Assembly (NCBI RefSeq): GCF_001999285.1
Contig: NZ_MLHN01000001.1
Span: 62,001-126,000 of the forward strand
Direction: 5' to 3'
From: Rodentibacter genomosp. 1
GTDB taxonomy: Bacteria > Pseudomonadota > Gammaproteobacteria > Enterobacterales > Pasteurellaceae
DNA length: 64,000 bases
Part shown: positions 9,323 through 36,207 of the stretch, one piece after another
How positions within the stretch are numbered: position 1 is the stretch's first letter
Layout of the letters: every line of letters begins with the position of its first letter
The notes under the pieces: model-generated
What the model was told of the DNA's origin: nothing
The model's input: only the letters and a program-made list of their open reading frames with translations
Database searches by the model: none
Program-made: the position numbers and the translations under genes

Positions 9323-10948
9323 TTAATCCAACAAATAGATGCTTTGATAAGGCATTAACAACACTTTATTTTCTTCTAATGACAGATCATTATAGTTATT
9401 CATTAGAATCTCACCTTTCACATTTAACGCAATCTGTTGTGGTTGATCGCTTAAGTTTGCCAACACGGTCAAGGTTTGTCCGTTGGCTTGGCGTTGATAT
9501 GTCCAAACGAACTTATGATTCGGCAGTAAATCGGTGTAATTGCCCTCGGTTAGAATAGATAATTCTTTGCGAAGTTTGATGAGTGCCTGATAAGTGTAGA
9601 ACACCGAGTGTTTATCCGCTAACGCTTTTTCTACATTGATTTCAGTATAGTTGCGTGCCACATCGATCCAAGGTTGGGCTGTGGAGAAACCGGCATTTTC
9701 ACTCTCGTCCCATTGTACCGGCGTGCGGGAATTATCACGGGATTTCTGTGCCAGAATTTTTATAATCAGATCGTCATTGATGCCTTTTTCTTTCAGTTCC
9801 TCATACGCATTTAAGCTTTCCACATCGCGATATTCTTCAATCGTGGTGAAATTTGGGTTCGTCATACCAATTTCTTCACCTTGATAAATATAAGGCGTAC
9901 CTTGCATACCGTGAAGCAGCATCGCTAACATTTTAGCGGAAATTGCACGAAGTTCCCCCTCATCGCCAAAACGTGAAACGATACGAGGCTGATCATGGTT
10001 ACACCAAAATAAGGCATTCCACGCCTTGCCGTGCATGCCTTGTTGCCAGTAGTTAAAAATTGACTTCAGTTCGACAAAATCAGGTTGGGCGTATGTCCAT
10101 TTTTCACCCTTCGGGTAATCCACTTTGAGGTGATGGAAATTGAAGGTCATAGATAATTCTGTACCGTTCAAATTGGCATAGCGTTGGCAATGTTCAAGAC
10201 TGGTGGAAGACATTTCACCCACACTCATCAAGCCGTAAGGCGTGAGAGCATGTTGATTGAGCATTTGCAAATATTCGTGGATCTTATGTCCATCGGTATA
10301 GAAACGGCGACCATCTCCCTCGAAATCATCTTCAAAATGCTCAGGTTTAGAAATCAAATTCACCACATCCAAACGCAATCCATCAATGCCTTTTTCTGCC
10401 CAAAAACGACAAATTTCAAACAATTCTGACCGCACTTTGGGATTTTCCCAATTTAAATCTGCTTGCTCGGGGGCGAATAAGTGCAAATAATATTTTTGTG
10501 CTTTATCCGACCATTTCCATGCCGAACCGCCAAATTTTGATTTCCAGTTAGTCGGGTTTTCACGCCAAATATAGTAGTCGTGGTATTCGCTTTGTGGATT
10601 TTCCCCTTCTTCAAACCAACGGTGGAAAGTAGAACTATGATTAAACACCATATCCATCACAATACGAATATTGCGTTTATGGGCTTCGGCAATCAGTTGC
10701 TCGAAATCCGCCATCGTACCGTAGATCGGATCAATTTCACGGTAATTGGCGATATCGTAACCGTTGTCAATTTGTGGGGAAACGTACATCGGCGTGATCC
10801 AAATGCCATCAATGCCGAGCGTTTGTAAATAGTCTAAACGTTTGATGATACCTTGAATATCACCTGTACCGCTGCCTGTCGTATCTTGAAATGATTTTGG
10901 GTAGATTTGGTAGATAACGCCATTTTTCCACCAGTTTTGGTTATTCAT
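9323..10948 (-). CDS. treC: Trehalose-6-phosphate hydrolase TreC
   Basis: 541 residues, glycoside hydrolase family 13. It splits trehalose-6-phosphate, the product of TreB transport, into glucose and glucose-6-phosphate. The GH13 conserved regions are in order: DMVFNHSS, GLRLDVVN (nucleophile Asp), VGEM (acid/base Glu) and WCNHDQPR (transition-state Asp). The N-terminal WWKNGVIYQIYPKSFQD is typical of the group. The start at 10948 has AAGGACA 6 bases upstream; the open frame to 10993 gives no family match. It is the third gene of treB-bla-treC, 58 bases after the beta-lactamase gene. Confidence 0.95.
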   Translation of the reverse strand: MNNQNWWKNGVIYQIYPKSFQDTTGSGTGDIQGIIKRLDYLQTLGIDGIWITPMYVSPQIDNGYDIANYREIDPIYGTMADFEQLIAEAHKRNIRIVMDMVFNHSSTFHRWFEEGENPQSEYHDYYIWRENPTNWKSKFGGSAWKWSDKAQKYYLHLFAPEQADLNWENPKVRSELFEICRFWAEKGIDGLRLDVVNLISKPEHFEDDFEGDGRRFYTDGHKIHEYLQMLNQHALTPYGLMSVGEMSSTSLEHCQRYANLNGTELSMTFNFHHLKVDYPKGEKWTYAQPDFVELKSIFNYWQQGMHGKAWNALFWCNHDQPRIVSRFGDEGELRAISAKMLAMLLHGMQGTPYIYQGEEIGMTNPNFTTIEEYRDVESLNAYEELKEKGINDDLIIKILAQKSRDNSRTPVQWDESENAGFSTAQPWIDVARNYTEINVEKALADKHSVFYTYQALIKLRKELSILTEGNYTDLLPNHKFVWTYQRQANGQTLTVLANLSDQPQQIALNVKGEILMNNYNDLSLEENKVLLMPYQSIYLLD

Positions 10949-11006
10949 TTTATTGTCCTTTTTATATTTTGTGCCAAAAGTGATTGACATCAATTTATTA
11001 GTCTAA

Positions 11007-11855
11007 TCAAGGCAATTGCTCAAAAATTACTCTGCCAATTTCTGCAATAGCTTGGTTGCGTTGTGCCATTGTTGCTCGGGTGTTTGTGAGATAAATTGAG
11101 AGCAGATAGCCGGTGCCGTCAGGTTTCCAGAAAATGCTAATGATTGATCTTGAGCCATGACTTCCTGCCCCCGTTTTATCGGCAATTTTCCACCCCTCTG
11201 GCAAGGTTGAGCGAAGTAGATCATTGGCTACTTGATCATCTAACATCCATTGGGTGAGCAGCATTTTTGAGGGAGCGGTGAGTAGATCAGTAAAAACAAA
11301 TTGGTGAAGTAATCGAGCCGCTTCAATTGGGGTGGTGAGATCTAATCCTTTTTGGAGATTATCTCTGTTCATCTCAGGTTCACGCCGATCAAGACGGGTT
11401 TTATTTAGCCCGTGCTGTTTGAAATAATCACTGATTGCTTTCACGCCACCAATTTGCTTTACAATGAGGTTGGCTGCCGTGTTATCACTATAACTGACCG
11501 CTGCTGAGCAAAGTTCCGCCAAGTTCATTGTGGTCTTATTTTTGGTTACCGGTGAGTAGCTGACAATGTCCGTTGCCTGAATCGGCAATTTCTGTGTGAA
11601 AGAAAGAGCATTGTCTTCCGCTAAATCTAATGCAATCCCACAAATGAAAGCTTTATGGGTACTATTAAGCGGAAAAGCACGGTTTCCCTGATATTCAAAG
11701 AGTACTTTTCCATCTGATGAAAGCAGGGCTACCCCAATATCCGCTTTTAATTTTTGTTCTTGCTGCGTAATGGTTTGTTTCCAATCTGCCTTTGACATTG
11801 CCGTAAGGGGCAATGCCAAAAGTAAACTGAAGACTAAAATTCCCTTATTCCACAT
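11007..11855 (-). CDS. Class A beta-lactamase inside the trehalose operon
   Basis: 282 residues with a signal peptide (hydrophobic GILVFSLLLALPLTA). All class A active-site elements are present and well spaced: S65-T-H-K68 (catalytic Ser70 and Lys73 in standard numbering), S123-D-N, E159 in EPEMN (Glu166 loop) and K227-T-G, followed by GSRS, which carries an Arg in the region of Arg244. C72 and C116 match the disulfide of TEM enzymes. It should therefore be an active periplasmic serine beta-lactamase; the spectrum cannot be read from the sequence. The start at 11855 has AGGAG 7 bases upstream. It follows the treB stop by 13 bases and precedes treC, so it probably shares the trehalose-inducible transcript. 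I see no mobile element around it. Confidence 0.93.
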   Translation of the reverse strand: MWNKGILVFSLLLALPLTAMSKADWKQTITQQEQKLKADIGVALLSSDGKVLFEYQGNRAFPLNSTHKAFICGIALDLAEDNALSFTQKLPIQATDIVSYSPVTKNKTTMNLAELCSAAVSYSDNTAANLIVKQIGGVKAISDYFKQHGLNKTRLDRREPEMNRDNLQKGLDLTTPIEAARLLHQFVFTDLLTAPSKMLLTQWMLDDQVANDLLRSTLPEGWKIADKTGAGSHGSRSIISIFWKPDGTGYLLSIYLTNTRATMAQRNQAIAEIGRVIFEQLP

Positions 11856-11868
11856 CAGGGTTCTCCTA

Positions 11869-13284
11869 TTATAAGGTTCCTGTTGCGGCTTTACGTTTGT
11901 AAACAATGGTTGTCAACACAAATGGGATCACGATCGCTGCGAGCATTGCAAGACTGAATACGCCCCAATATTGATGTTGAACGGAAAGAATACCTGGCAA
12001 GCCGCCCACACCAATACTACCGGCTAACACGCCGGATAAACCGCAGATTAAGCCTGCTACGGCTGCACCGATCATTGCACATAACATCGGGAAGCGATAT
12101 TTGAGGTTAATCCCATACATGGCGGGTTCGGTTACGCCGAGATAAGCGGAAAGAGCGGCAGGAATTGCCACTTCGCGAGATTGCGCACTTTTATTCACAT
12201 AGATAATTCCGACAACCGCAGATGCCTGAGCGATATTGGACAACGCAATGATTGGCCATACAGGTGTTCCGCCAATACTTTGGATCATCTGCATATCAAT
12301 CGCAAGTGAGGTTTGATGTACGCCCGTAACCACAAGCGGCGCATAGAGAAACCCGAATAATGCTGCACCGATTGGGGCAAAATCTCCCGTCATGGCATAT
12401 TTCACCACAAAGGCTACGCCATTACCGATTTCACGACCGATAGGCCCGATAATGCTATGAGCTAGGAACACGGCAAGGATAATGGAGACAACCGGTACAA
12501 TGATAAGATTTAAGAAATCAGGTACGATTTTTGTCATCAAACGCTCAATGTAAGAGAGCGTTAAACCAGCCATAATTGCCGGAATCACTTGTGCTTGGTA
12601 GCCGACTTTTTCAATACTAAACCAACCAAAATTCCAAGCTTCCGGCAATTGTGAACCAAGAGCATAAGAATTCATCAATTGTGGGGAAACAAGGGTAATC
12701 CCAAGAACAATACCTAAAATAGGCGAAGTACCCATTTTACGGGCAATAGACCAACAAATTCCCACCGGTAAGAAATGGAAAATGGCTTCACCAATCAACC
12801 ATAAGAAACTGTGCATACTGTTCCAGAATGGGCTGATTTGTGTTAGCGTTTTACCGTCGAACATGGCTATATCGCCAATCACATTACGGAAACCAAGAAT
12901 CAAACCGCCGCTAATTAATGCCGGTAGAAGGGGAATAAAAATATCCGCCATGTGCGAAATTAGGCTTTCGTACCATTTTTGATTCTGACGTGCGGCTGCT
13001 TTTACCTGTTCTTTATCCACGCTTGCCAAGCCTGTTTTTTCAAGCAAAATTTTGTAATAGTCGCCGACTTCTTGACCGATCACAACTTGATATTGTCCAC
13101 CGGTTGAGAAATTGGCTTTTACCATTGGTAAGGCTTCAATCGCCTTGGCGTCAACCTTACTTTCATCATTTAACACGAAACGTAAACGGGTAATGCAATG
13201 TGTCACTGTTGCAATATTTTCACGTCCACCAATCGCTACGATCAGCTTATCCACATTTTGCGGATCAATTTTTTGTTTTGCCAT
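11869..13284 (-). CDS. treB: PTS trehalose-specific EIIBC component TreB
   Basis: 471 residues. The N-terminal EIIB domain (about 1-85) has the phosphocysteine in THCITRLRF. The C-terminal EIIC domain has about ten membrane segments, with GVTEPAMYGINLKYRFP as the sugar-site signature. It imports trehalose as trehalose-6-phosphate. No EIIA domain is fused, so it must borrow one, as in E. coli (Crr). It is the first gene of the operon and is preceded by a promoter, a TreR-type operator and a CRP-like site. Confidence 0.96.
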   Translation of the reverse strand: MAKQKIDPQNVDKLIVAIGGRENIATVTHCITRLRFVLNDESKVDAKAIEALPMVKANFSTGGQYQVVIGQEVGDYYKILLEKTGLASVDKEQVKAAARQNQKWYESLISHMADIFIPLLPALISGGLILGFRNVIGDIAMFDGKTLTQISPFWNSMHSFLWLIGEAIFHFLPVGICWSIARKMGTSPILGIVLGITLVSPQLMNSYALGSQLPEAWNFGWFSIEKVGYQAQVIPAIMAGLTLSYIERLMTKIVPDFLNLIIVPVVSIILAVFLAHSIIGPIGREIGNGVAFVVKYAMTGDFAPIGAALFGFLYAPLVVTGVHQTSLAIDMQMIQSIGGTPVWPIIALSNIAQASAVVGIIYVNKSAQSREVAIPAALSAYLGVTEPAMYGINLKYRFPMLCAMIGAAVAGLICGLSGVLAGSIGVGGLPGILSVQHQYWGVFSLAMLAAIVIPFVLTTIVYKRKAATGTL

Positions 13285-23966: not shown

Positions 23967-25007
23967 TTATTCTCCCTTCACTTCTTTTACCCAACGCTCA
24001 ATCAAACGTTTTGCTTCCTGATCAGAACCAAATCGAATGAAATCAATATCAATGAGTTTGAGTTTTGTTGGATTCGGCAGATTAGGATGGGCTTTAGCAT
24101 AAATATTAGTTGGAAGCTGATAAGCCTCTGCTTCACGCCATGGAATTTCTTGAGCTTCTGCGGAAAGTACAAAATCCATAAAAAGTTTGGCATTTTCTAA
24201 GTTTCGCCCATTTTTAATAATACTTGCCGCCCCCAAGGTGTAGCCAACGCCTTCGCAAGGAAGAATACCGGCAACCGGTGCACCTTTGTCTTTTTCCCGA
24301 ACATAAGCATGCATAAATCCAATATTGGCAGTTGTTGCACCGGTAGAAAGGTTGCTGGTCGCCATACCGCTTTTAGTGTATTGGTTGATGTTTTTGTTTA
24401 ATGCCTTCAAATAATCAAACGCCTTATCTTCGCCCATCAGCTCGACAAGAGTGGCAATAATGCTATATCCTGTGCCGGATACGCGTGGATCAGGATATTG
24501 AACCAAATCCTTAAATTCCGGTTTTAATAAATCAGCGTAACACTGCGGTGTGGCGATATTTTTTTCGGCAAGGGATTTCTCATTAATCCCAATGCCAAGA
24601 TCCATTAAATAAATAATGGAAGTGGTATCACCGCGTTGTTCCACCAAGTTTTTAAATTGAGGCAAAATATTTTTTTGCTCAGGTGAACGGTAGGTTTCAA
24701 GCAAACCTGCATCTCGGGCTTGCAAGTGGGGTTCAAATGTTCCGCCATACCAAACATCCGCTTGAGGATTGTCTTTCTCCGCTTTGAGTTTGCCTAGTAC
24801 TGTACCGGTACTATTGCGGACAAATTGTGTATTTACATCATATTTTTTACTGAAAGCTTGGGTCACCTTTTCACAGGTTGTGTTTTGTACCGTACAATAA
24901 ACAACCAACTTTCCTTGTGCCTTAGCTGTGTTTGGCAGACCAATATTTAATAATGTACAAAGTGCGGTTAATTTAAAGGCATTTTTTAAATGAGTATAGG
25001 GAATCAT
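23967..25007 (-). CDS. AfuA-like periplasmic binding protein, probably for a thiamine compound
   Basis: 346 residues with a signal peptide (FKLTALCTLLNIGLPNTAKA). The mature protein resembles AfuA and other iron/thiamine-type binding proteins (KLVVYCTVQNTTCEKV, QADVWYGGTFEPHLQA, GTGYSIIATLVELMG, CEGVGYTLGAASII) and is a paralogue of the afuA gene at 44 kb in this window. A TPP riboswitch lies in its leader, so the likely ligand is thiamine or a phosphate ester of it rather than ferric iron. No permease or ATPase gene is adjacent: the downstream gene is the convergent fdhD. The start at 25007 has AAGGA 5 bases upstream; the ATG at 25013 overlaps that site. Confidence 0.88.
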   Translation of the reverse strand: MIPYTHLKNAFKLTALCTLLNIGLPNTAKAQGKLVVYCTVQNTTCEKVTQAFSKKYDVNTQFVRNSTGTVLGKLKAEKDNPQADVWYGGTFEPHLQARDAGLLETYRSPEQKNILPQFKNLVEQRGDTTSIIYLMDLGIGINEKSLAEKNIATPQCYADLLKPEFKDLVQYPDPRVSGTGYSIIATLVELMGEDKAFDYLKALNKNINQYTKSGMATSNLSTGATTANIGFMHAYVREKDKGAPVAGILPCEGVGYTLGAASIIKNGRNLENAKLFMDFVLSAEAQEIPWREAEAYQLPTNIYAKAHPNLPNPTKLKLIDIDFIRFGSDQEAKRLIERWVKEVKGE

Positions 25008-25064
25008 ATGCATCCTTACTTAATGAATAAAGAAAAAGTAAGTCAGCCCTTGAGGAAGAGAAGA

Positions 25065-25136
25065 TTAGTTTCCTACGTCAGTGCTAACTGCTTCAGGTTC
25101 ACGGGTGTTTCTCAGCGATTCTCGCACCCTGACTAA
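25065..25136 (-). ncRNA. TPP riboswitch (THI element)
   Basis: On the minus strand the conserved parts appear in order: closing stem TTAGTC, GGGTGC, CTGAGA, ACCC, GAACCTGA, then GACGTAGGAA and CTAA. These are the diagnostic thiamine pyrophosphate pocket bases. The 60-base region up to the start codon would be the expression platform; control of translation near the AAGGA site seems likely. The remaining 25137-25467 is AT-rich and marks the edge of the foreign island; I see nothing definite in it. Confidence 0.9.
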
Positions 25137-25467
25137 CCAAGCCAAGACTATAATTTGTAATCTTATTTTTGTAAAGTCGGATCTGTTTATTGTTGTCGTT
25201 GTGGTATTTAAAATGTACCTACGTAGAAGTGTTATTTGCCATGAAAAATAATGCTTGAAATATAGGGTAGCGGTATTTTTAACACATTAATTATACAAGG
25301 TTTACAATGTATTGAAAGTGATAGGTCTGAAAAGACCGTTCTGTTAAAACGGAGTAGTAAATTTATTGTAAATAAAAAATTGATCTACCTCTCATAAATA
25401 ACTTTTGCCAATACACATTTCGTTTTTCTTTTTGTAAGATTTAGATGTTTAGTCAAGGTTATTTTTT

Positions 25468-26411
25468 ATGAAAAAAGAGAAAATTTATTACGCTCACTCT
25501 AGCGAAAGTCTTTCAGAATCTCAGTGGCAAATTTTACAGAATCACTTGTCTCAAGTCGCCGAAATGTCAGCTAATTTTGCTTGTTTTTTTGGCTCACAAG
25601 AGATAGCAAGGAATACGGCTAAATTGCACGACTTAGGCAAATATACAGAAGCATTTGATAGGCGACTGCGAGGTGGTCCTTCCGTTGACCATGCTACCGC
25701 AGGTGCGAAGATTGCGGTTGAGCGTTGGGGGGGGGGCAGGTAAGCTGATGGCTTTCTGCATTGCCGGTCATCATGCCGGCTTGGCAAACGGTAATGGAGA
25801 GGGGGATAACCGTCGTACCTTAGCGCAACGCCTTGCTCTTGCTTTCGGCAAAGATATTCCCGAGCTTGACCCTGTTTGGCAGCAGGAAATCGTGTTGCCT
25901 GAAAAACTGCCCGCACCGCCCTTGAAGCCTGACGCCCATCATAAATGGTTTTCTTATGCCTTCTTTATCCGTATGCTGTATTTTTGCCTGGTGGATGCTG
26001 ATTTTCTTGATACCGAAGCCTTTTATGCTTGCGTTGAAGGCAAATCCATACAGCGCGGCGGCTATCCCGATTTAAACGCTCTGCAACAACGTTTCAACAC
26101 CTTTATCGAATCTTTCAGACAGATAGCCAAGCAGGCTCCGGCAAACGAAGCCGAGCGACATCGCGCTGCGCTTAATCGCCTACGCAGTAACATTCTCGAC
26201 CATGCCGTTGCGCAAACTCCAGCATTACACCGTGCAAATCCCCGAAAGCGCACTAGATGCCTTGTTGAAAGCTAGACGCATTGAAACTATCAAGGAATAC
26301 ACCTTCGGAAAACAGTTTTACTGCCTGATTGGGTTGGATTTGTATGATGATGTGGCGGGGGTTAGTTGGGAGGATACTAATTTTTTAAGAGAGGAGAATT
26401 TGATTTTCTAG
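25468..26411 (+). pseudogene. cas3: cas3 remnant, type I-C (frameshifted, helicase deleted)
   Basis: Two ends of a type I-C Cas3 remain. The first frame (25468-25743) gives the start of the HD nuclease domain, including AKLHDLGKYTEAF. At a run of ten G (25727-25736) the frame is lost; it continues one frame over with KLMAFCIAGHHAGLANG and on to LNRLRSNILDHA, where the HD domain ends. Near 26200 this joins directly to the Cas3 C terminus (KLQHYTVQIPESALDALL...YDDVAGVSWED...ENLIF), in yet another frame. The whole helicase part, over 1 kb, is missing. The gene is dead for interference. Its GC content looks higher than that of the neighbouring genes. Confidence 0.85.
25727..25736. repeat. Poly-G tract (10 G) in the cas3 remnant
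   Basis: Nine G would keep the HD domain in frame (ERWGGAGKLMAF); ten shift it. Such tracts change length easily by slippage. Confidence 0.9.
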
Positions 26412-26482
26412 TTTAAGAAAGTTTTCAATCCATTATTAAAAATATTTTTTTAAACTTATAAATTTATTAAGAAGGTAAAACT

Positions 26483-28318
26483 ATGGAACGTTCACATCTT
26501 GTACGTATGCGTGTTAGAAATATTGGCTGTATCGGTAATGAGGGTTTGACAGTTGAATTAGATGATATTGTGTGCTTAGTCGGAGCAAATAATGCTGGTA
26601 AAACAACAGTATTAAGAGCATATGAATTAGCAGTTCAGCAAGAAAAGTTAGATATAAAAGATTTTAATTGTAATGCAAATGGAAATCCTGCTACGGTCGA
26701 ATTATGGGTTCATATTCCTAAAAGTGCAGGCAACATTGATGAAAAATGGAAAGAGGCAACAGAAGATGGATTATTGCTAGTCCGTTCTAAGTGGGAATGG
26801 CCTTTAGAAGGAGGAAAACCTACTAGACGCACTTGGGATCCAGAGAAGAGAGAATATGCGGATGACGGTAAAGCTGCTGGATTAGATACTGTGTTTAATA
26901 GCCGTTTGCCCAAACCATTTAGAATAGGTTCTTTAGATAATCCTGAAGAAGAGCATAAAAAATTATTAAATCTTGTACTTGAACCAATAATTAATAAATA
27001 TAAAGAAATTATAGAAAATGAAGAATCTGAATTAAGCAATAAAATTAAGGAACTGAAGAGCTTGGCAAATGATCCAATATCAGAACTTCGTAGTGACATT
27101 GAAAAAATCCAGCAACAGATTAATTCATCCTATTGCAAAGTATTTAGTGCATCAGGAATTCATCTTAACATTGGGATTGGAGATATTGGTTTTGATCCTG
27201 CAAAATCTTTGCTATCAGGTTCAAGAATTGATATTTCTGAAACAGGCAACGTTGCTCGCTGGGATCAGCAAGGAACAGGCTCACAGCGAGCACTATTTTG
27301 GTCTATTCTTCAGGTAAGATCTGAGTTAAGTAGAGTTTCTGATATACAAAAGGAATTACAAAAATTAGAAAGCAAAAAATCACAAACTTCGAAAGATAAA
27401 GAAAAAATTCAAAATCTTAAGAGCCAATTATCTCAATCTCAAAATGGTTCAAGCGATTTCTTTTTGCCTGGGTACATGTTGTTGATTGATGAGCCTGAGA
27501 CGGCATTACATCCCTCAGCAATTCGTGCAGCTAAAGAACATTTATATAACTTAGCGTCTGAAGCAGGTTGGCAAGTCATGTTGAGTACTCATCATCCTGC
27601 TTTTGTTGATCCTATAAAAGATCATACAACCATTGTTCGCTTACATCGATTAGATAAGCATTTAGAACCCAATATATATAAATCAGAAACAATAAATTTT
27701 AGTGATGATGAATTAGATAATCTGAAAGCATTAATGGTTTTTGATTCTAATGTTTCTGAAATTTTTTTTGGAGATAAAGTTGTTATTGTCGAAGGGGATA
27801 CTGAGTTTGCTGCTTTTCATGAAGTTATGAATAGTAATCCTGCGGATTATCCTGTTAGCCAACGTCCTCTTATTATTAGAGCTAGAGGAAAAGCGACAAT
27901 TACTATTTTAGTAAAAATCTTATCTCATTTTAAAATTAATTTTTCTGTATTGCACGATATAGACTCTCCTAAAATTTCGTCTGGTGATAGGGCTAATTCG
28001 GCATACTCTATAAATAGAGCAATTTCAGAGGCCGTAACTGAGGCACGTAAAGCTGGATTAACAGTTACTTATCGTTGTTCATGTCCTAATTTTGAAATTC
28101 ATCATAACATGGACTTGCCATCTAAAGATAAGCCATTTAGAAGTTGGAAAGCTGTTCAAGAGAAGGAAAAAGTGCGTTCAAGTGTAGAATCTATACTGAA
28201 AGAATTAATCAGCGTATGCAATGATATTCCAAGTAATGATGGTACTAACTATGAAGAAACTTTAAAAAATTGGATTGAGTTTCATCATAAACAGGACGAG
28301 CCTTGTTACAAATTTTAA
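26483..28318 (+). CDS. OLD-family ATPase with TOPRIM nuclease domain
   Basis: 611 residues. The N-terminal ABC-type ATPase has Walker A GANNAGKT (34-41), signature-like QGTGSQRALFW, Walker B LLIDEPE (D336, E337) and an H-loop STHHPAF. A helical insertion with coiled-coil character lies around 175-215 and 280-315. The TOPRIM part has the catalytic Glu in VVIVEGDTEF (E437) and the acidic pair HDID (D492, D494). OLD-type proteins are DNA nucleases used in phage defence, alone (P2 Old) or with partners (Gabija). No partner helicase is adjacent, so this looks like a single-gene type. The gene is AT-rich, unlike the cas fragments on both sides, and sits between cas3 and cas5 remnants. It has no visible damage. 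Confidence 0.85.
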   Translation: MERSHLVRMRVRNIGCIGNEGLTVELDDIVCLVGANNAGKTTVLRAYELAVQQEKLDIKDFNCNANGNPATVELWVHIPKSAGNIDEKWKEATEDGLLLVRSKWEWPLEGGKPTRRTWDPEKREYADDGKAAGLDTVFNSRLPKPFRIGSLDNPEEEHKKLLNLVLEPIINKYKEIIENEESELSNKIKELKSLANDPISELRSDIEKIQQQINSSYCKVFSASGIHLNIGIGDIGFDPAKSLLSGSRIDISETGNVARWDQQGTGSQRALFWSILQVRSELSRVSDIQKELQKLESKKSQTSKDKEKIQNLKSQLSQSQNGSSDFFLPGYMLLIDEPETALHPSAIRAAKEHLYNLASEAGWQVMLSTHHPAFVDPIKDHTTIVRLHRLDKHLEPNIYKSETINFSDDELDNLKALMVFDSNVSEIFFGDKVVIVEGDTEFAAFHEVMNSNPADYPVSQRPLIIRARGKATITILVKILSHFKINFSVLHDIDSPKISSGDRANSAYSINRAISEAVTEARKAGLTVTYRCSCPNFEIHHNMDLPSKDKPFRSWKAVQEKEKVRSSVESILKELISVCNDIPSNDGTNYEETLKNWIEFHHKQDEPCYKF

Positions 28319-28398
28319 AAGTATAAATATGGATTATATATGATCTGCCCCTTCTCCCCGGAAGGGGATGTGTTAACAAAATCATAGGAGAACAAAAA

Positions 28399-29190
28399 AT
28401 GAATCGGGTACGCCTACACATCTGGGGGGGGGATTACGCCTGTTTTACCCGTCCGGAAATGAAGGTGGAGCGGGTGTCTTACGATATCATCATGCCATCG
28501 GCAGCGAGAGGGATTCTGTTAGCAGTGCACTGGAAACCTGCGATACTCTGGGTGATTGATCGCATTTATGTATTGAAACCGATCCGTTTTGAATCGGTGC
28601 GGCGTAATGAATTGGGCAGCAAGATTTCTGAAAGCAAGGTGAGCGGGGAGATGAGGCGCAAGAGTGTGGTTGATTTATATACGATGATTGATGACGATCT
28701 CCAGCAGCGTGCGGCAACAGTGCTGAAAGACGTGGACTATGTGATTGAAGCCCATGCGGTGCTGACGGCCAAAGCGGGCGAGGACGATACGAGCACTAAG
28801 CATATCGAGATGTTTAAGCGGAGGGCGTCGAGTTTCCAGAGCATTTTGCCTGGGTGGTCGATAACGGAGCTTTCCCCGAATCATGCTTGTCTGAAAGCGA
28901 AGCCAACCGCGATTTTGGCTGGATGTTGCACGATATTGATTTCGACCACGGCAATCTGCCGAAATTTTTCCGTGCCGAAGGAGATGACGAGACAGCGTAT
29001 CGCAAAGGGCGCGCTGTGGTATATACAAACCTGCCACCGCGTACCTGTGCTGTTTTCAGACGAACTACGCGCACAAACACTGACTGTTACCGTCCAAGTG
29101 CGCGAACTTTTGGCAGGCGGGAAAACCCCGTCACCAGTGTATGGCAAACGCTGCAAAGCCTGCTCTCTGGTGGAAGTTTGCCAGCCGTAG
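28399..29190 (+). pseudogene. cas5-cas4 deletion chimera, type I-C
   Basis: One open frame of 263 codons is made of broken parts. Residues 1-about 140 are the start of Cas5c (YACFTRPEMKVERVSYDI, HWKPAILWVIDRI, FESVRRNELG, HIEMFKRRA). After RRA a stretch is missing and the true Cas5 frame continues in another phase (EFPEHFAWVV, then DFGWMLHDIDFDHGNLPKFFRAE, the usual Cas5c end). Close to 28990 the sequence becomes the C terminus of Cas4 in the first frame (VLFSDELRAQT, ending KRCKACSLVEVCQP with the three C-terminal iron-sulfur cysteines). So cas8c, cas7 and most of cas4 were deleted. A nine-G run at 28424-28432 adds one glycine after IWG. AGGAG precedes the start. Confidence 0.82.
28424..28432. 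repeat. Poly-G tract (9 G) in the cas5 remnant
   Basis: The family reads IWGDYACF; here three extra G give IWGGDYACF and keep the frame. It is the second G run in this cas locus. Confidence 0.9.
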
Positions 29191-29261
29191 TTGTTGGAAC
29201 GGGATCGGTCGGTTGGGTATGTGGAGGGGTTGTTTTGGGAATATCAAATTAAATTAATCAA

Positions 29262-29974
29262 GGGGCTGACGTAGATTAGCTAGTATGTTAATCTACAAAA
29301 ATGAAGATAACTCATTGTAAATTAAAGAAATCTATACAGAAAAAGCGCCTTGAGTTTTTTGTATTAGAAGTAACGGCTCGTTCAGCAGCAGATTTACTCG
29401 GTATTCAGCCTAATTCAGCAATCCTGTTTTACCGCAAAATCCGTGAGGTCATCAGCTATCATTTAGCCCTTGAAGTGGATGAAGTATTTGACAAACAAAT
29501 AGAGTTGGATGAAAGCTATTTTGGTGGACATCGTAAAGGAAAACGAGGTCGTGGAGCGGCAGGAAAAGTGGCTGTTTTTGGGATATTGAAACGGCAAGGT
29601 AAAGTGTTTACTGTGGTCGTCAATGATACGAAGACAACAACGCTGATGCCTGTTATAGCAAGGAAAATCAAGCCTGATAGCCGGGTTTATACCGATACTT
29701 ATCGTAGTTATGATGCCCTTGATGTAAGCGAATTTTACCACGAACGGATTAACCATTCAGAGTTGTTTGCGGTGAAACAAAACCATATTAATGGAATTGA
29801 AAATTTTTGGAGTCAAGCTAAGCGGATACTTCGAAAATATAATGGAATAGAGCGAAAAAGTTTTCCTTTATTCTTGAACGAATGCGAATTTCGGTTTAAC
29901 TTTGGTACACCAAAAGAGCAGTTAAAAACATTGCGAAAATGGTGTGAAATTTAGGGCTAATCTACGTCAGCCCC
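29262..29974 (+). mobile_element. IS1016-type insertion sequence (IS1595 family)
   Basis: 713 bp bounded by perfect 19-base inverted repeats, GGGGCTGACGTAGATTAGC at 29262-29280 and its complement at 29956-29974. It holds one transposase gene. IS1595-family elements duplicate 8 bases. Here TAAATTAAT occurs on both sides, but with CAA between it and the left end, so the duplication is not clean. It lies between the cas4 remnant and the DUF262 gene. IS1016 is known from Haemophilus and Neisseria. Confidence 0.93.
29301..29954 (+). CDS. IS1016-type transposase
   Basis: 217 residues, full length. The ISXO2-like DDE/N domain is recognisable by IELDESYFGGHRKGKRGRG, VYTDTYRSYDAL and HINGIENFWSQAKR, and the family C terminus FRFNFGTPKEQLKTLRKW is present. 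No frameshift is seen, so it may be active. Confidence 0.94.
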   Translation: MKITHCKLKKSIQKKRLEFFVLEVTARSAADLLGIQPNSAILFYRKIREVISYHLALEVDEVFDKQIELDESYFGGHRKGKRGRGAAGKVAVFGILKRQGKVFTVVVNDTKTTTLMPVIARKIKPDSRVYTDTYRSYDALDVSEFYHERINHSELFAVKQNHINGIENFWSQAKRILRKYNGIERKSFPLFLNECEFRFNFGTPKEQLKTLRKWCEI

Positions 29975-30014
29975 TAAATTAATTTTCATAATCACATGTT
30001 ATTGGAGAATTTTA

Positions 30015-31859
30015 ATGAGCAATCTTGAAAATAAAATTGAGGCTCGCCATCGGAACTTGTTTGATGTATTGAGTGAACAAAAATATACGGTAGATTATTT
30101 TCAACGGGAATATAGCTGGGAAAGGAAACATATTGAGGCGTTAATAACAGATTTAACATCTTCTTTTCTTAATGAGTATATGCCAGGGGATAAGCGTGAA
30201 GAAGGAGAAAAATACAATAATTACTATCTAGGACCATTTGTGGTAAGTGTCAAAGATGGTAAGCGTAGCATCATTGATGGTCAGCAACGCCTTACTTCTC
30301 TTACTTTATTTTTAATTTATCTTCATAATTTGCAAAAAGAATTGGGTGAGACAGAAAAAATTGAATCAATGATTTTTTCGGAATTAAGAGGAAATAAGTC
30401 TTTCAATATTACAGTGGAAAGTCGAATTCCTTGTCTAGAAGCTTTATTTAATAACGGTAGATACATTAGTAATGATAAAGATGATATGTCTGTTATTAAT
30501 ATGACCGAACGTTATCAAGATATAGAAGAAATATTTCCCGACGAGTTAAAAAATGAGTCTTTTCCATTTTTTATTGATTGGTTAAAGTATAACGTCATTA
30601 TGGTAGAAATTATTGCTTATTCCGATGAAAATGCTTATAACATTTTTGAGACTATGAATGACAGAGGGTTAAATCTCACGCCTTCTGAAATGCTTAAAGG
30701 ATTTATTTTATCTCGGTTTGATAATCTGAATAAGCGTGAGCAAGCTAATGAGGCGTGGAAAAAAGCAGTGCTTGATTTAAAAGTTTATGACAAAGATGAA
30801 GATCAACGTTTTTTCCAATCTTGGTTACGGGCTAAATATGCCGATAGTATTCGTACCGGTAAGGCAGGCTCTCAGAATGAAGACTTTGAGAAAATTGGCA
30901 CCCGTTTTCACAGTTGGGTAAGAGACAATTTATCTAAAATTGGTTTGGATCCTGAAAATAGTAAAACTTTTGAGAATTTTGCTCAAAAAGAATTTCAGTT
31001 TTACTTGGATGCATATATTCTGATCCTTAAAGCAGAGAAAGAGCTGAATTTAAAACTTGAATATGTCTACTACATCAATCATTGGGGAATTGCGCCAACA
31101 TTAAGCTTTCCTTTGATGTTGGCCTCGTTAAATATAAATGATAGTAATGAAATTGTTTGTGAAAAAATAAACATTGTTGCTCGCTATATTGAAACGTTTG
31201 TCGTTAGACGTTCTATAAATTTCCGAAAATTCTCAGCAAATTCTATACGTTATACTATGTATAACTTAGTGAAAGAAATTCGGGGGAAGGATGTTCATGA
31301 ATTAAAACAAATACTTTCCAAGAAACTTTCTGAAATGCAAGAATCTTTTGATGGCATGAATGAATTTCGTCTTCATGGGCAAAATTATCGATTTGTGAAA
31401 TTTTTATTGTCTCGCATGACTGCTTGGATAGAAAAGAAAGCTGGAATGGATACTAATTTTATAACTTATTATCAACCAACTGCAGGAAAGCCTTTTGAGG
31501 TTGAACATATTTGGGCAAATAAATTTTCACGTTATCAGGACGAGTTTCAGCAAGAGCATGAATTTAATAGTTATCGCAATAGAATAGGCGATTTAGTGTT
31601 ATTGCCGCGTGGAACGAATCAGTCATATGGTGATTTAACCTATGAGAAAAAGCATATTCATTACATTAAAGAAAATTTATTGGTCAAATCTCTCTGTCCT
31701 TTAGCATATGAAAATAATCCAAATTTTACTTGCCTAAAAAATGAACTGAAATTGCCATTTCAAGCTCACATAGAGTTTAAAAAAATAGATGTTGATAAAA
31801 GGCAGAGGCTTTATCAGGCTATTTGTGAGCAAATCTGGAATAATGAATTGAAAAATTAG
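30015..31859 (+). CDS. DUF262/DUF1524 protein, GmrSD-like nuclease
   Basis: 614 residues. The N-terminal DUF262 domain has the ParB-like signature YFQREYSWE and IIDGQQRLTSL (D88-R92), plus FETMNDRGLNLTPSEMLKG. The C-terminal DUF1524 part has an HNH-type nuclease motif: FEVEHIWANKF (H498) followed by NRIGDLVLLPRGTNQSYG. This layout is that of GmrSD and related proteins, which cut modified phage DNA and need a nucleotide. The specificity cannot be read here. TTGGAGAA precedes the ATG. The gene is AT-rich, intact and lies just after the insertion sequence, between cas4 and cas1 remnants. Confidence 0.85.
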   Translation: MSNLENKIEARHRNLFDVLSEQKYTVDYFQREYSWERKHIEALITDLTSSFLNEYMPGDKREEGEKYNNYYLGPFVVSVKDGKRSIIDGQQRLTSLTLFLIYLHNLQKELGETEKIESMIFSELRGNKSFNITVESRIPCLEALFNNGRYISNDKDDMSVINMTERYQDIEEIFPDELKNESFPFFIDWLKYNVIMVEIIAYSDENAYNIFETMNDRGLNLTPSEMLKGFILSRFDNLNKREQANEAWKKAVLDLKVYDKDEDQRFFQSWLRAKYADSIRTGKAGSQNEDFEKIGTRFHSWVRDNLSKIGLDPENSKTFENFAQKEFQFYLDAYILILKAEKELNLKLEYVYYINHWGIAPTLSFPLMLASLNINDSNEIVCEKINIVARYIETFVVRRSINFRKFSANSIRYTMYNLVKEIRGKDVHELKQILSKKLSEMQESFDGMNEFRLHGQNYRFVKFLLSRMTAWIEKKAGMDTNFITYYQPTAGKPFEVEHIWANKFSRYQDEFQQEHEFNSYRNRIGDLVLLPRGTNQSYGDLTYEKKHIHYIKENLLVKSLCPLAYENNPNFTCLKNELKLPFQAHIEFKKIDVDKRQRLYQAICEQIWNNELKN

Positions 31860-31923
31860 CAAGCGTAGGGTGTGTGTCCTTGTGTACGCACGCGTTGATA
31901 GGTTATCTGTTTTTTTGTTCTAC

Positions 31924-32087
31924 GCCGTCTGAAAGCCTGATTTTTTTCAGACGGACTTAAAATCCTCCAATGGGTAATATGTGTGTGGCTTGTGCTACAC
32001 GCATGAAGTAGGTAGGGCATTTATAGCCCGTGGTCAAGTAAAAGTCGAGCATAAATGTCCGACCTACTAAAATCGTTTTCAGACGGT
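31924..32087. repeat. Neisseria-type DNA uptake sequences and inverted repeats
   Basis: The gap between the DUF262 gene and cas1 (31860-32146) holds GCCGTCTGAA at 31924-31933, a perfect 10-base neisserial uptake core. TTCAGACGGA at 31946-31955 and TTCAGACGGT at 32078-32087 are 9/10 matches; the first two form a hairpin. An imperfect inverted repeat at 32008-32024 and 32051-32067 (GTAGGTAGGGCATTTAT against ATAAATGTCCGACCTAC) resembles intergenic sequence I associate with Neisseria. A USS with one mismatch (AAAGTGCGATC) follows at 32115. Confidence 0.75.
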
Positions 32088-32146
32088 CTAAACAACAATC
32101 GGTTCCAAAATAAAAGTGCGATCAAAATCAAGGGAGTTTTTCAACC

Positions 32147-33171
32147 ATGCGAAAACTGCAAAATACGCTCTACATCACTACGCAGGGCAGTTGCATAAGG
32201 AGTGGGAAACGTTGGTGGTGGAACAGGAATACAAAAAGGTGGCTCAGTTGCCGGTACATTCCATCGGGCATATTTTCTGTTTCGGCAATGTGCTAGTGTC
32301 ACCATTTTTGATGGGGTTTTGCGGAGAAAAGAAAATAATGTGAATCTGGCGTTTTTCACCGAAAACGGACGTTTTTTAGGACGGTTGCAGGGCGACAGAG
32401 TGGTAATGTTACTGCGATGGACACAATATCGTCTGTCGGAACAAAATCCGGTGCCGATTGCTCGGAATATTATTGCGGAGAAGATTCAGTCGGGTAAGCA
32501 GGTGTTACAGCGGCGACTACGTAATCACGGTGAACTTGAGGTGATTCAAGTGGCTGTGTCTGCGATGAATTTCGCTTTACGGTAATTGAAGAGGGCGTAA
32601 AGCTTGGAGTTAATTTGCGGAATTGAGGGCGATGCTGTGGCACGTTATTTTGGTGTGTTCAGGCCATTTGCTACGTGAAAACAGTTGTTTTGTTTTCGAC
32701 GGACGCAACTGACGGTCACCACATGACGAGGTGAATACCCTACTGTCATTTGTGTACAGTATTTTGGGCAAGGATATCAGTGGCGCGTTGCAAGGCTTGG
32801 GTTTAGAGCCGCAGGTGGGTTTTCTACATGCCGATGGTCCGGGGCGAGACAGTTTGGCGCAAGATATCTTGGAGGAGTTTCGAGTGTGGTGGGCGGACAG
32901 ATTGGTGCTATCGTTAATTAACCGAGGTCAAATTAAGCCTAAGGATTTTGTGACCGAGGAGGGTGGAGTGGTGAATATCAAACCGGAGGCACGAAAGCTA
33001 GTGTTCCAAACTTTGCAGGTGAAAAAACAGGAAAAGATTGTGCATCCATTTTTACAGGAAGAGGTGGTCATCGGTCTGTTACCGCATATTCAAGCCATGT
33101 TGCTAGAGAGGCATTTACGCGGCGATTTGACGGAATATCCCCCCGTTTTTGATGCGATAATTCATCAATAA
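32147..33171 (+). pseudogene. cas1: cas1 remnant, type I-C (multiple frameshifts)
   Basis: Pieces of one Cas1 are spread over several frames. MRKLQNTLYITTQG starts at 32147 after AGGGAG. The next frame gives LHKEWETLVVEQEYKKVAQLPVHSIGHIFCFGNVLVSPFLMGFCGEK. A third gives VNLAFFTENGRFLGRLQG...MLLRWTQYRL, with a stop at 32585. The C-terminal part is NTLLSFVYSILGKDISGALQGLGLEPQVGFLHADGPGRDSLAQD...HLRGDLTEYPPVF to 33171. Most integrase residues can still be recognised (GFLHADGPGR), but no single frame encodes them, so it cannot make a working Cas1. Confidence 0.88.
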
Positions 33172-33213
33172 AATGAAGGAGAAAATTTTGATGTTTTTGG
33201 GAGTGAATCATTT

Positions 33214-33507
33214 ATGATGATGTTAATTACCTATGATATCTCTTTTGAGGCAGATGATGGTGAAGGAAGGTTGAGTAGAATAGCTAAACATTGTTTGGAT
33301 TATGGCGTTCGCGCGCAATATTCAGTGTTTGAATGTGATGTAACGCCTGATCAATGGGTGGTTCTAAAAGAGAAACTTCTTAATACTTATGCCCCTAAAT
33401 GTGATAGTCTACGGTTTTACCATTTGGGTAGTAAATGGCGTAATAAAGTAGAACATCACGGAGCAAAACAATCTATAGACATATTTAATGATACGCTGAT
33501 TTTATAA
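33214..33507 (+). CDS. cas2: CRISPR-associated protein Cas2
   Basis: 97 residues, full length, with the Cas2 ferredoxin-like fold and the conserved Asp in MLITYDIS (D8), RISKHC-like RIAKHC, VQYSVFEC-like AQYSVFEC and a final region FYHLGSKW. It is the only intact gene of the original type I-C set. It lies 42 bases after the cas1 remnant and before the CRISPR leader. Three consecutive ATGs are possible starts. Without Cas1 it has no known role in acquisition. Confidence 0.9.
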   Translation: MMMLITYDISFEADDGEGRLSRIAKHCLDYGVRAQYSVFECDVTPDQWVVLKEKLLNTYAPKCDSLRFYHLGSKWRNKVEHHGAKQSIDIFNDTLIL

Positions 33508-33697
33508 TTCGCTAACCTGTAGTTGTCAAGAAAAAACTGAGTGGTTAGCGATAATAAAAGTTCTTTAAAAATTAGTGGCTTATAAAATTGAAGTATGGCA
33601 AGAAGAGCAGTGGTATACTTCACATCACTTCCAAGGTAAAAGCTTAGCGAATTAAGGGCCGTAAAACCTTATAGCGAAAGGCTTCAAAACCTAGGAT

Positions 33698-33794
33698 CCA
33701 GCCGCCTTCAGGCGGCTGTGTATTGAAACATTTTTGTAGTATTCATCTACTCTCAAATCTAAAGCCTCCGTCTTGGAACAGTTGAGTATTAAAT
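33698..33794 (+). CRISPR. Residual type I-C CRISPR array: one repeat, one spacer, a degenerate end repeat
   Basis: The repeat at about 33698-33729 has the perfect palindrome CAGCCGCC/GGCGGCTG around TTCA and the tail GTGTATTGAAAC, characteristic of type I-C repeats. A 33-base stretch (33730-33762) has spacer length. It is followed by a decayed copy (AGCCTCCG... ending GAGTATTAAAT) at about 33763-33794, as expected for a terminal repeat. The 190 bases between cas2 and the repeat would be the leader. The array stops about 80 bases before uvrD. Confidence 0.72.
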
Positions 33795-33872
33795 GATTAC
33801 TATAACTAACGCTAGATTCACTTACAAATAATGTCTATAATAACTGTAAATTTAAACAGATGAAATAATGTT

Positions 33873-36053
33873 ATGGATATTTCTGAATTACTTGATGGTT
33901 TGAATGATAAACAGCGTGAGGCGGTGACCGCACCACTTGGCAATTATTTAGTATTGGCAGGGGCGGGCAGCGGTAAAACCCGTGTATTGACCCATCGTAT
34001 TGCGTGGTTGGTGGCGGTGGAGAATATTTCCGAAGGTAGCATTATGGCAGTGACTTTTACCAATAAAGCCGCCGCGGAAATGCGTCACCGTATTCAAACT
34101 ACATTGAGCCAATATTCCAACTCAAATTTATTTGGTATGTGGATTGGTACATTTCATAGTATTGCTCATCGCTTATTACGTGCTCATCATTTAGATGTCG
34201 GATTGCCGCAGGATTTCCAAATTTTGGATTCGGAAGATCAACTTCGTTTAGTGAAACGTTTGTTGAAATTACATAATTTTGATGAAAAAGCCTTTCCGCC
34301 AAAACAGGCTTGTTGGTATATCAATAACAAAAAAGATGAAGGCTTACGACCGCAAGAGATTGAGGATTTTAATGATCGGCAAGAGCGTGAATGGATTAAA
34401 ATTTATCAGATTTATCAAGATACTTGTGATCGTACCGGTCTGGTTGATTTTGCAGAATTGTTAATTCGTGCTTATGAATTATTTGCTAAAAAACCGCTGA
34501 TTTTGCAGCGTTATCAACAACGTTTTCAACATATTTTGGTGGATGAATTTCAAGATACCAACAAAATTCAATACCAATGGCTAAAAATTTTTGCAGGACA
34601 AACCGGCAAAGTCATGATAGTGGGTGATGACGACCAGTCTATCTATGGTTGGCGTGGTGCTCAGGTTGAAAATATCCAAAGATTCCTTAAGGATTTCAAG
34701 GGGGAAACTATACGCCTTGAGCAAAATTATCGTTCTACTGCCAATATCCTAAATAGTGCGAATGAATTAATCGCTAATAATGCGGATCGTCTCGGTAAGA
34801 ATTTATGGACAGAGGGGGAAAAGGGCGAGCCGGTTGGTATTTACGCTGCCTTTAATGAACTTGATGAAGCTAAATTTGTGTCATCTCAAATTCAAGATTG
34901 GGTTGAAAATGGAGGGAAGTTGGATGATTGTGCGGTGCTTTATCGTAGCAACAGCCAATCCCGTGTGATTGAAGAAGCCCTAATCCGTTGTCAAATTCCT
35001 TACCGTATTTATGGGGGGATGCGATTCTTTGAACGCCAAGAAATTAAAGATGCGTTGGCTTATTTACGCTTAATTAATAACCGTCAAGATGATGCGGCTT
35101 TTGAGCGTGTGATCAATACGCCACCTCGTGGCATTGGTGATCGCACCTTAGATATTTTGAGAAATCTAACTCGTGAGCGACAAATTACCTTATGGCAAGC
35201 GATACAGGTTGCGATACAAGAAAATATGCTCACAGGTCGTGCTAGCACAGCTTTGTTACGTTTCCAAGAGCTGATTAATTCCTTGTCATTGGATACAGCA
35301 GAAATGCCACTTTTTGCCCAAACGGATTTTGTAATTAAACATTCCGGTTTGTATGATATGTATAAGCAGGAAAAAGGTGAAAAGGGTGAAGTGCGGATAG
35401 AGAACTTAGAAGAGTTGGTTAGCGCTACTCGTGAGTTTGTGAAACCGGATGATGCTGATGAGATGACGGAACTTACCGCCTTTTTAACCCATGCGTCCCT
35501 TGAAGCAGGAGAAGAGCAAGCCTCTCCTCATCAATCTTGTGTAGAAATGATGACATTACATTCGGCCAAAGGGTTAGAATTTCCACGGGTATTTATGGTG
35601 GGCGTTGAGGAAGGACTATTTCCGAGTTTTCGCTCTTTTGAAGAACCGGGACGACTAGAGGAAGAACGCCGTTTGGCCTATGTGGGGATTACGAGAGCAA
35701 AGCAAAAACTCACGATTTCTTATGCGGAAAGCCGCCGTTTATACGCAAAAGAAGAGCGACATTTGCCTTCCCGTTTTATTGCTGAGTTACCACAAGAATG
35801 TATCCAAGAAATCCGACTGCGGGGAACGGTGACACGTGCAATGAATTTAGCCAAAGTCGGATCGCTGGCACAGTCGATAGAAAGTGAAAACGGTTGGAAA
35901 ATGGGACAAAAAGTCAAACATGCAAAATTTGGTTTGGGAACGGTGATCAATGTTGAGGGGTGTGACAATAATACAAGGTTACAAATTGCGTTCCAAGCAC
36001 AAGGTATTAAGTGGTTAATCGCACATTTGGCAAAATTGGAGAAAGTTCGGTAG
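33873..36053 (+). CDS. uvrD: DNA helicase II UvrD
   Basis: 726 residues, superfamily 1A helicase of nucleotide excision and mismatch repair. The motifs are in order: GAGSGKTRVL (I), FTNKAAAEM (Ia), VDEFQDTN (II), GDDDQSIYGWRGA (III), EQNYRST (IV), TLHSAKGLEFPRVF (V) and EERRLAYVGITRAK (VI). The C terminus ends with the UvrD Tudor-like part (GQKVKHAKFGLGTV). It is a housekeeping gene by its close match to E. coli UvrD and its place before dpp, not a partner of the nearby OLD gene. Confidence 0.97.
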   Translation: MDISELLDGLNDKQREAVTAPLGNYLVLAGAGSGKTRVLTHRIAWLVAVENISEGSIMAVTFTNKAAAEMRHRIQTTLSQYSNSNLFGMWIGTFHSIAHRLLRAHHLDVGLPQDFQILDSEDQLRLVKRLLKLHNFDEKAFPPKQACWYINNKKDEGLRPQEIEDFNDRQEREWIKIYQIYQDTCDRTGLVDFAELLIRAYELFAKKPLILQRYQQRFQHILVDEFQDTNKIQYQWLKIFAGQTGKVMIVGDDDQSIYGWRGAQVENIQRFLKDFKGETIRLEQNYRSTANILNSANELIANNADRLGKNLWTEGEKGEPVGIYAAFNELDEAKFVSSQIQDWVENGGKLDDCAVLYRSNSQSRVIEEALIRCQIPYRIYGGMRFFERQEIKDALAYLRLINNRQDDAAFERVINTPPRGIGDRTLDILRNLTRERQITLWQAIQVAIQENMLTGRASTALLRFQELINSLSLDTAEMPLFAQTDFVIKHSGLYDMYKQEKGEKGEVRIENLEELVSATREFVKPDDADEMTELTAFLTHASLEAGEEQASPHQSCVEMMTLHSAKGLEFPRVFMVGVEEGLFPSFRSFEEPGRLEEERRLAYVGITRAKQKLTISYAESRRLYAKEERHLPSRFIAELPQECIQEIRLRGTVTRAMNLAKVGSLAQSIESENGWKMGQKVKHAKFGLGTVINVEGCDNNTRLQIAFQAQGIKWLIAHLAKLEKVR

Positions 36054-36207
36054 ATTTTATTCCTATATTAAAGGGTGTTTTGATTCAGCAATGAAAATTG
36101 GTATATTCTGGAAAAGAATGATTAATAGCAATTGGTGATTTGGAAAAATTAGAAAAAGTGCGGTAGAATCCAAAGGCATTTTATTTTGAGTCTAAAGGCT
36201 TTATTCT

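Follow-up and report, generated by a model that had tools for sequence, protein, structure and literature searches.

The stretch of DNA analyzed here, 64,000 nucleotides of Rodentibacter genomosp. 1 (assembly GCF_001999285.1, contig NZ_MLHN01000001.1, positions 62,001 to 126,000; hereafter the window), contains a dead type I-C operon of the CRISPR (clustered regularly interspaced short palindromic repeats)-Cas kind in which two genes are still whole: an OLD-family ATPase/TOPRIM gene at the cas3/cas5 junction and a GmrSD-like DUF262/DUF1524 gene at the cas4/cas1 junction. The operon is probably of a cargo-carrying kind common in Pasteurellaceae, the two genes being slot cargo that outlived the cas genes. 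We read them as I-C cargo because the same slots are filled in 33 of the 41 complete operons in the family, two of which hold relatives of the OLD gene.

Operons of this kind have two slots, at cas3/cas5 and cas4/cas1, that hold whole innate defence genes or systems in the orientation of the cas genes, and this cargo would be swapped between strains. In the window, OLD would fill the cas3/cas5 slot and the DUF262/DUF1524 gene the cas4/cas1 slot. Interference and adaptation were wrecked by deletions, by losses of frame and by one IS1595 insertion, with the two inserted genes remaining whole and now free-standing. Judging by their families, the two proteins would act independently: OLD as an ATP-gated nuclease directed at DNA that is aberrant or of phage origin, and the GmrSD-like protein as an endonuclease that is nucleotide-gated and attacks modified DNA. 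We infer an antiphage function for the cargo, its loading before the decay, and its exchange through recombination within the cas genes on either side.

A decayed I-C operon encloses two intact genes

Positions 25468–33729 of the window, which belongs to a genome of 2.35 Mb in 50 contigs, hold in the I-C order the remnants of cas3, cas5c, cas4 and cas1c together with an intact cas2 and a single CRISPR repeat. Profile hidden Markov models (HMMs) match the cas3 HD domain, a Cas5c joined to the C-terminal end of Cas4, pieces of Cas1c, and a Cas2 of 97 aa (Table 1). The reading frame of cas3 is lost at a G tract, with a stop at 25743, and a 1.32-kb internal deletion has its joint at about 26207–26215; the final cas3 codons lie at 26202–26411. 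Roughly the first 145 codons of cas5c are in frame, after which the frame is lost, and the fusion to cas4 reflects a 3.1-kb deletion that took out cas8c and cas7 along with the beginning of cas4. The Cas8c (TIGR01863) and Cas7 (PF05107) models find no match in the genome at E ≤ 0.001, Cas1 matches are confined genome-wide to three pieces in this locus, and the I-C repeat, with up to 3 mismatches allowed, has a single genome copy without a spacer. The remnants retain the I-C gene order and match the Cas5c, Cas1c and Cas2c models, but cas8c and cas7 are undetected; the locus is the remnant of such a system and not a working member.

A locus from the same genus (L059, genome G126) has all seven cas genes at full length, with SIR2-HerA at cas3/cas5. 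It shares the left chromosomal flank with the window; its contig ends past the array, leaving the right flank unseen. Two segments are absent from the window relative to it: 1.32 kb of cas3, where the joint carries a short shared sequence, and 3.1 kb spanning cas5 to cas4. This comparison confirms the erosion of the window locus. Rodentibacter caecimuris (L045/L050), whose two chromosomal flanks both match the window, has suffered a different deletion, from cas5 to cas1: cas8, cas7 and cas4 are missing in L050, yet OLD is whole.

These results uphold the anatomy proposed in a first-pass annotation made from the sequence of the window, namely remnants of cas3, cas5, cas4 and cas1 with an intact cas2 and one repeat in I-C order, loss of cas8c and cas7, and two whole genes, OLD and DUF262/DUF1524, amid broken cas machinery. 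The same annotation held that the two genes differ in base composition. Their G+C contents (34.3% for OLD and 32.5% for DUF262) are indeed low against 47–52% in the cas3, cas5-cas4 and cas1 remnants; this is weak evidence of origin, because the intact cas2 is also low at 35.7%.

Table 1 Features of the I-C locus in the window
Feature	Position	Strand	Evidence
cas3 remnant	25468–26411	+	HD-domain start; Cas3 HMM matches; compared with L045/L050 and L059
OLD-family ATPase/TOPRIM gene, intact, 611 aa, cas3/cas5 cargo	26483–28318	+	AAA_15 2.9e-16; OLD-like_TOPRIM 4.7e-12; PADLOC Old 5e-75
Hairpin like the second of the degenerate CRISPR repeats that relatives have upstream of cas5	28348–28377	+	Position; flanks of relatives
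cas5c remnant	28399–28978	+	Cas5c 2.7e-44, residues 4–145; matches L059 DNA as far as 28978
cas4 3' remnant	28979–29252	+	Cas4c 1.8e-18, residues 194–263 of open reading frame (ORF) 28399–29190; joint compared with L059
IS1595-family insertion sequence	29262–29974	+	NF033547 4.6e-46; DDE_Tnp_IS1595 3.1e-32; transposase 29301–29954
DUF262/DUF1524 (GmrSD-like) gene, intact, 614 aa, cas4/cas1 cargo	30015–31859	+	GmrSD_N 1.5e-32; GmrSD_C 7.6e-8; PADLOC HEC-06 1.5e-37
cas1c remnant, several pieces	32147–33171	+	Cas1 matches with internal stops
cas2, intact, 97 aa	33214–33507	+	CRISPR_Cas2 6.3e-23; Cas2c 1.6e-36
I-C CRISPR repeat, only one left	33699–33729	+	Repeat search

Two junctions of Pasteurellaceae I-C operons carry inserts

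The Cas1c model was run on 140 Pasteurellaceae genomes, of which 86 match at E ≤ 0.001 and 50 score above its cut-off. We collected 59 family regions, comprising the loci of all 50 genomes above the cut-off, three second loci and six regions picked because they have an OLD match or a remnant of Cas1c. The junction analysis used 57 of them, L055 and L056 being excluded as lacking cas1. With an insert defined as a junction gap of at least 500 bp, cas3/cas5 is open in 24 of 53 loci (including L054 and L075, where cas3 or cas5 is fragmentary) and cas4/cas1 in 40 of 55. At the remaining four junctions such gaps are found in 0/51, 1/52, 1/53 and 2/55 cases, or 4/211 together. All seven cas genes are full length, meaning an open frame above a set length, in 41 of the 57 loci, and an array was detected in 37 of these. 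Among the 41 complete loci, 16 have an insert at cas3/cas5, 29 at cas4/cas1, 33 at either and 12 at both. Insert ORFs of at least 100 aa share the cas strand in 96 of 102 cases over both slots, window included.

Outside the family, samples of 398 and 369 genomes contained 55 with a match; 51 were fetched, four being excluded for a short upstream contig. There, cas3/cas5 is open in 1 of 41 loci and cas4/cas1 in 7 of 51, while the cas7/cas4 junction has a gap in 12 of 50, a relocated cas3 accounting for two of these (L142 and L145).

The contents of the slots are largely assignable to defence families by sequence. About one ORF per sequence cluster was scanned, 50 against Pfam and 30 against PADLOC. 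A Pfam family is matched by 29 of the 50, one being a transposase-like ORF on the opposite strand, and PADLOC models match 14 of the 30 at 1e-5. The families include SIR2-HerA, DSR2, Kiwa (KwaA and KwaB), DarT with Macro (DarTG), TIR and SMODS with SLATT (CBASS), together with AbiP2 reverse transcriptase, PD-T4-4, PD-T4-7, Ditto-like, Fic, NYN, HNH, RhuM, GmrSD and OLD proteins. A cargo gene with neither a Pfam nor a PADLOC match (L052, 5600–7318) is related to the gene in the cas4/cas1 slot of L058 (572 and 573 aa) and is a candidate unnamed defence gene; further candidates, likewise unmatched, are cargo genes in L106 (340 aa) and L066 (288 aa) and ORFs 2 and 3 of a three-gene set in L079.

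Relatives of the OLD gene occupy the same slot in complete operons

The ATPase and the OLD-type TOPRIM domain lie within one chain in the OLD protein, an ABC-type ATPase-plus-TOPRIM architecture shared with the class 1 OLD nucleases, to which P2 Old belongs; its best solved relative by sequence is 6p74 (2e-16). Like that class it lacks a dedicated helicase partner. The Gabija protein GajA acts with its partner GajB, whereas the helicase next to the window's OLD gene is a true housekeeping UvrD (TIGR01075, 1316 bits against a cut-off of 1144), and Gabija is ruled out.

OLD matches occur in 8 of the 140 Pasteurellaceae genomes, including the window's own and one with a partial match of 26% identity, and a search of the genome contigs returned only five loci. 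Relatives 66–100% identical occupy cas3/cas5 in genomes G118, G117, G092 and G096 (loci L050, L051, L052 and L053); L052 and L053 are complete I-C loci. Genomes G092 and G096, from another genus of the family, have seven full-length cas genes with a 74%-identical OLD at cas3/cas5 and arrays in which 25 and 3 repeat copies, respectively, were detected; OLD is whole in G096 and has an internal stop in G092. The partial match (G014) is an OLD-family protein at cas4/cas1.

The R. caecimuris OLD protein is 100% identical to that of the window, across a species boundary. At the DNA level the two are 98.7–100% identical per 150-bp step over 26507–28306, the touching ends of cas3 and cas5 about 91–98%, cas1-cas2 88–97%, the cas3 start 77–95%, and the long flanking matches 83–84%. 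Because OLD is far closer to R. caecimuris than the flanks are, a recent exchange of the slot is suggested.

Two further OLD loci have other settings. In Haemophilus sp. HMSC068C11 (genome G081, L046), an intact OLD is flanked, as far as seen, by nothing more of the system than cas3 tips and two CRISPR repeats (9760–11960). This arrangement would fit a deletion in which the array recombined with an ectopic repeat adjoining OLD. In Gallibacterium genomosp. 1 (L047, 7098–18357), OLD lies between helicase-like genes on one side and an N6/N4 methylase and a ResIII gene on the other.

The DUF262/DUF1524 gene and its neighbouring insertion sequence

GmrSD_N (DUF262) and GmrSD_C (DUF1524) are both present in one chain, as in GmrSD nucleases and the PADLOC HEC-06 model; a single solved chain matches the protein (9jfl, 1.8e-9 over 60 residues). 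DUF262 matches at E ≤ 1e-10 are found in 13 of the 140 family genomes, and another GmrSD_N protein sits at cas4/cas1 of the complete locus L093. The cas4 remnant is separated from the DUF262 gene by an IS1595-family element that the first-pass annotation does not describe, bounded by 18-bp inverted ends (29262–29279 and 29957–29974).

OLD and DUF262 occur together in none of the 140 family genomes except the window's own. We saw no sign of joint action and reject them as a joint pair, since they co-occur only there. The comparison of this site in related genomes that the first-pass annotation called for did recover intact I-C loci. The pattern which that annotation named as its refutation, the same gene pair beside the same fragments in many distant genomes, was not seen literally; the OLD genes in the complete operons of G092 and G096 are a stronger point against its reading.

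Mini-CRISPR guides lie near cargo in relatives of the window

Positions 6 and 12 of the guide are unpaired in type I Cascade. A degenerate repeat ending about 28–80 nt upstream of the cas5 match is present in 12 family loci. In 7 of the 12, the guide that follows matches a site just past cas3 at 12–13 of 15 positions (6 and 12 ignored), flanked by TTC, the I-C protospacer-adjacent motif (PAM) reported in PMC12231136 and PMC8406640. The seven are L063, which has remnant cargo only, L077, L079, L090, L093, L096 and L101; they are not independent, as L077 and L101 have common cargo, and so do L079 and L093. A comparable score is reached at none of the 1117 TTC sites in the cas5-cas4 stretches of these loci, and the other five degenerate-repeat loci have no such TTC match. 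When every start was scanned in 23 loci, the best match began exactly after the repeat in the same seven.

At no more than one mismatch, with positions 6 and 12 ignored, 13 of 37 intervals match, against 2–4 in the five other phases. At no more than two mismatches, TTC yields 16 loci, against 0–2 for each of 12 other triplets and 0–2 with shuffled guides over 20 rounds. In L057 and L059 the guide matches at 14/14 beside TTA. The cargo with a guide match in L090 is itself OLD-like, accompanied by PD-T4-4_B. Two points count against the guides. When loci are swapped, L096 alone scores above every other locus; for the other six guides, one or more foreign upstream regions do as well, these regions being related to one another. 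At two mismatches the phases give 7, 8, 15, 11, 8 and 16 loci, so that only the one-mismatch cut-off singles out phase 6.

Other arrangements were also seen. L091, L100 and L103, which are without a long cas3/cas5 insert, have the mini-CRISPR in reverse orientation with its match ahead of cas5, and in L097 the matched site lies past the cargo, near cas5. At cas4/cas1, L065 alone among 50 intervals has a convincing guide (14/14, TTC flank); those of L096 and L106 score like shuffles. Five loci outside the family match at no more than two mismatches and L157 at three. In L109, L111, L140, L146, L147 and L157, such guide-target pairs lie in cas3-cas5 gaps of about 270–340 bp with no long cargo, resembling CreR.

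For the OLD of the window and of L050–L053, no guide was found by repeat-profile, unbiased 17-mer, handle-based or TTN-flank scans. The best guide scores there are 9–11/15, within the swapped-locus null; allowing any TTN flank gives 9–12/14, a score that comes without a null. A candidate in the window (11/14, with its target inside OLD) was put down to chance, its score being reached in 10 of 100 draws from the null. No guide repeat was found by these scans in front of the hairpin at 28348–28377.

The proposed CRISIS (CRISPR-Suppressed Immune Systems; Shu et al., bioRxiv 2024.12.27.630466), as outlined in a review (PMC12409349), resemble the window's relatives, in which a Cascade-type guide matches DNA upstream of cargo. 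The window itself has candidate defence genes, OLD and DUF262, embedded between cas genes; it differs in that no guide with a PAM-flanked target upstream of an embedded gene was found in it, and the searches of its genome detected neither Cas7 nor Cas8c. Because neither the window nor L050–L053 has such a guide, we do not class OLD as CRISPR-suppressed. In CreTA and CrePA, according to PMC9458426, PMC12737573, PMC8501985, PMC10097628 and, for Citrobacter CreTA, PMC12055562, a degenerate-repeat guide of partial complementarity to a PAM-adjacent site likewise represses a gene within the cas locus. The targets described there are either small toxins, encoded as an RNA or a short ORF, or a protein toxin of the KilA-N type; the cargo here comprises whole defence systems, and in the window no guide was found. 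The guides of L091, L100 and L103 target DNA upstream of cas5, as in CreR autoregulation of cas genes (Liu et al. 2023, as cited in PMC12948488 and PMC13131331); the cargo loci differ in having the matched site upstream of the cargo.

Origin of the intact genes

From broken cas genes beside whole inserts, the first-pass annotation inferred that innate genes had replaced an adaptive system at the same site. On this account decay of the I-C system came first, and selection afterwards brought innate genes into the empty place. The apparently recent exchange of the OLD block (98.4% identity, against 83–84% in the flanks) would suit that order of events. The complete operons speak against it: inserts occupy the same slots in most of them, and G092 and G096 have an OLD of the same family at cas3/cas5. 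So does the R. caecimuris OLD, which adjoins a different cas deletion. We reject replacement after decay for OLD, the slots being filled in complete operons, and find it improbable as a general account. We give equally little credence to the idea that the junctions merely tolerate insertions, with low-GC genes landing as passengers without selection for defence. It draws on the 21 of 50 cargo ORFs that match no Pfam family and on the opening of cas7/cas4 outside the family, where the two slots are mostly closed. The strongly defence-like contents speak against it, among them the multi-gene systems KwaA-KwaB, SIR2-HerA, SMODS-SLATT and DarT-Macro, as does the strand that nearly all insert ORFs share with the cas genes.

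A CRISIS-like history, in which Cascade and a mini-CRISPR had silenced OLD, to be released by anti-CRISPRs, and loss of Cascade left OLD permanently on and the guide has since decayed, has more in its favour. The seven TTC-flanked guide matches, the TTA-flanked matches of L057 and L059, the one-mismatch excess in phase 6, the shuffled controls, the guided OLD-like cargo of L090 and the hairpin retained in the window all agree with it. The missing guide in the window and in OLD loci L050–L053, the undetected Cas7 and Cas8c, the tied scores of six relatives and the poor phase specificity at two mismatches make us regard it as rather unlikely. A broader scheme would treat the I-C operon as a chassis with two docks, A at cas3/cas5, often guided by Cascade through a mini-CRISPR, and B at cas4/cas1, mostly not. 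Cargo would be swapped by recombination in the flanking cas genes, deletions that kill cas would free it, and the window would hold released cargo that has been tolerated and kept. We entertain this scheme tentatively, as somewhat short of an even prospect.

Several observations also weigh against the reading that we prefer, in which both genes are cargo loaded before the cas genes decayed. OLD is not always retained, because it is broken in G117 (two pieces) as well as by the internal stop in G092. Nor is it tied to CRISPR, because the Gallibacterium copy (genome G054, 56% identical) belongs to a restriction-like island with no cas operon around it. The DUF262 relatives in 12 other family genomes are only 25–38% identical and mostly partial; because they are so distant, an arrival of the DUF262 gene before the decay is argued by slot analogy, and a late arrival is possible given the adjoining IS1595. 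The share of cargo ORFs without a Pfam family also counts here.

Pasteurellaceae thus appear to use the I-C cas operon as a carrier of exchangeable innate defence genes, many of them unnamed and hence defence candidates. In cases of the window's type the CRISPR part is dead and the cargo alive, and such cases allow testing whether CRISPR-repressed defence genes harm or help once the repressor is gone. The CRISPR-suppressed design has already been proposed in print as CRISIS; in the literature searched, as far as its accessible text extends, we found no description of cargo slots in Pasteurellaceae I-C loci or of a family-wide slot pattern. A paper on Haemophilus CRISPR (PMC13016550) presents the I-C loci as an identical cas3-cas5-cas8c-cas7-cas4-cas1-cas2 cluster.

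Other observations on the locus and its relatives

The R. caecimuris array (L045, 13255–14009) has about 755 bp between two repeats. This stretch contains an ORF that by eye resembles a secretion or conjugation membrane protein, and it may be an oversized spacer or an insertion.

Uptake sequences are unevenly distributed in the window. The sequence AAGTGCGGT, which we take to be the Haemophilus-type uptake sequence, occurs 40 times in the whole window and not at all in the 11 kb around the cas locus (24969–36155). The sole copy of GCCGTCTGAA, presumably the Neisseria-type sequence, is at 31924, within this 11-kb interval. This pattern suggests that the I-C locus may have come from a foreign, perhaps Neisseriaceae, source.

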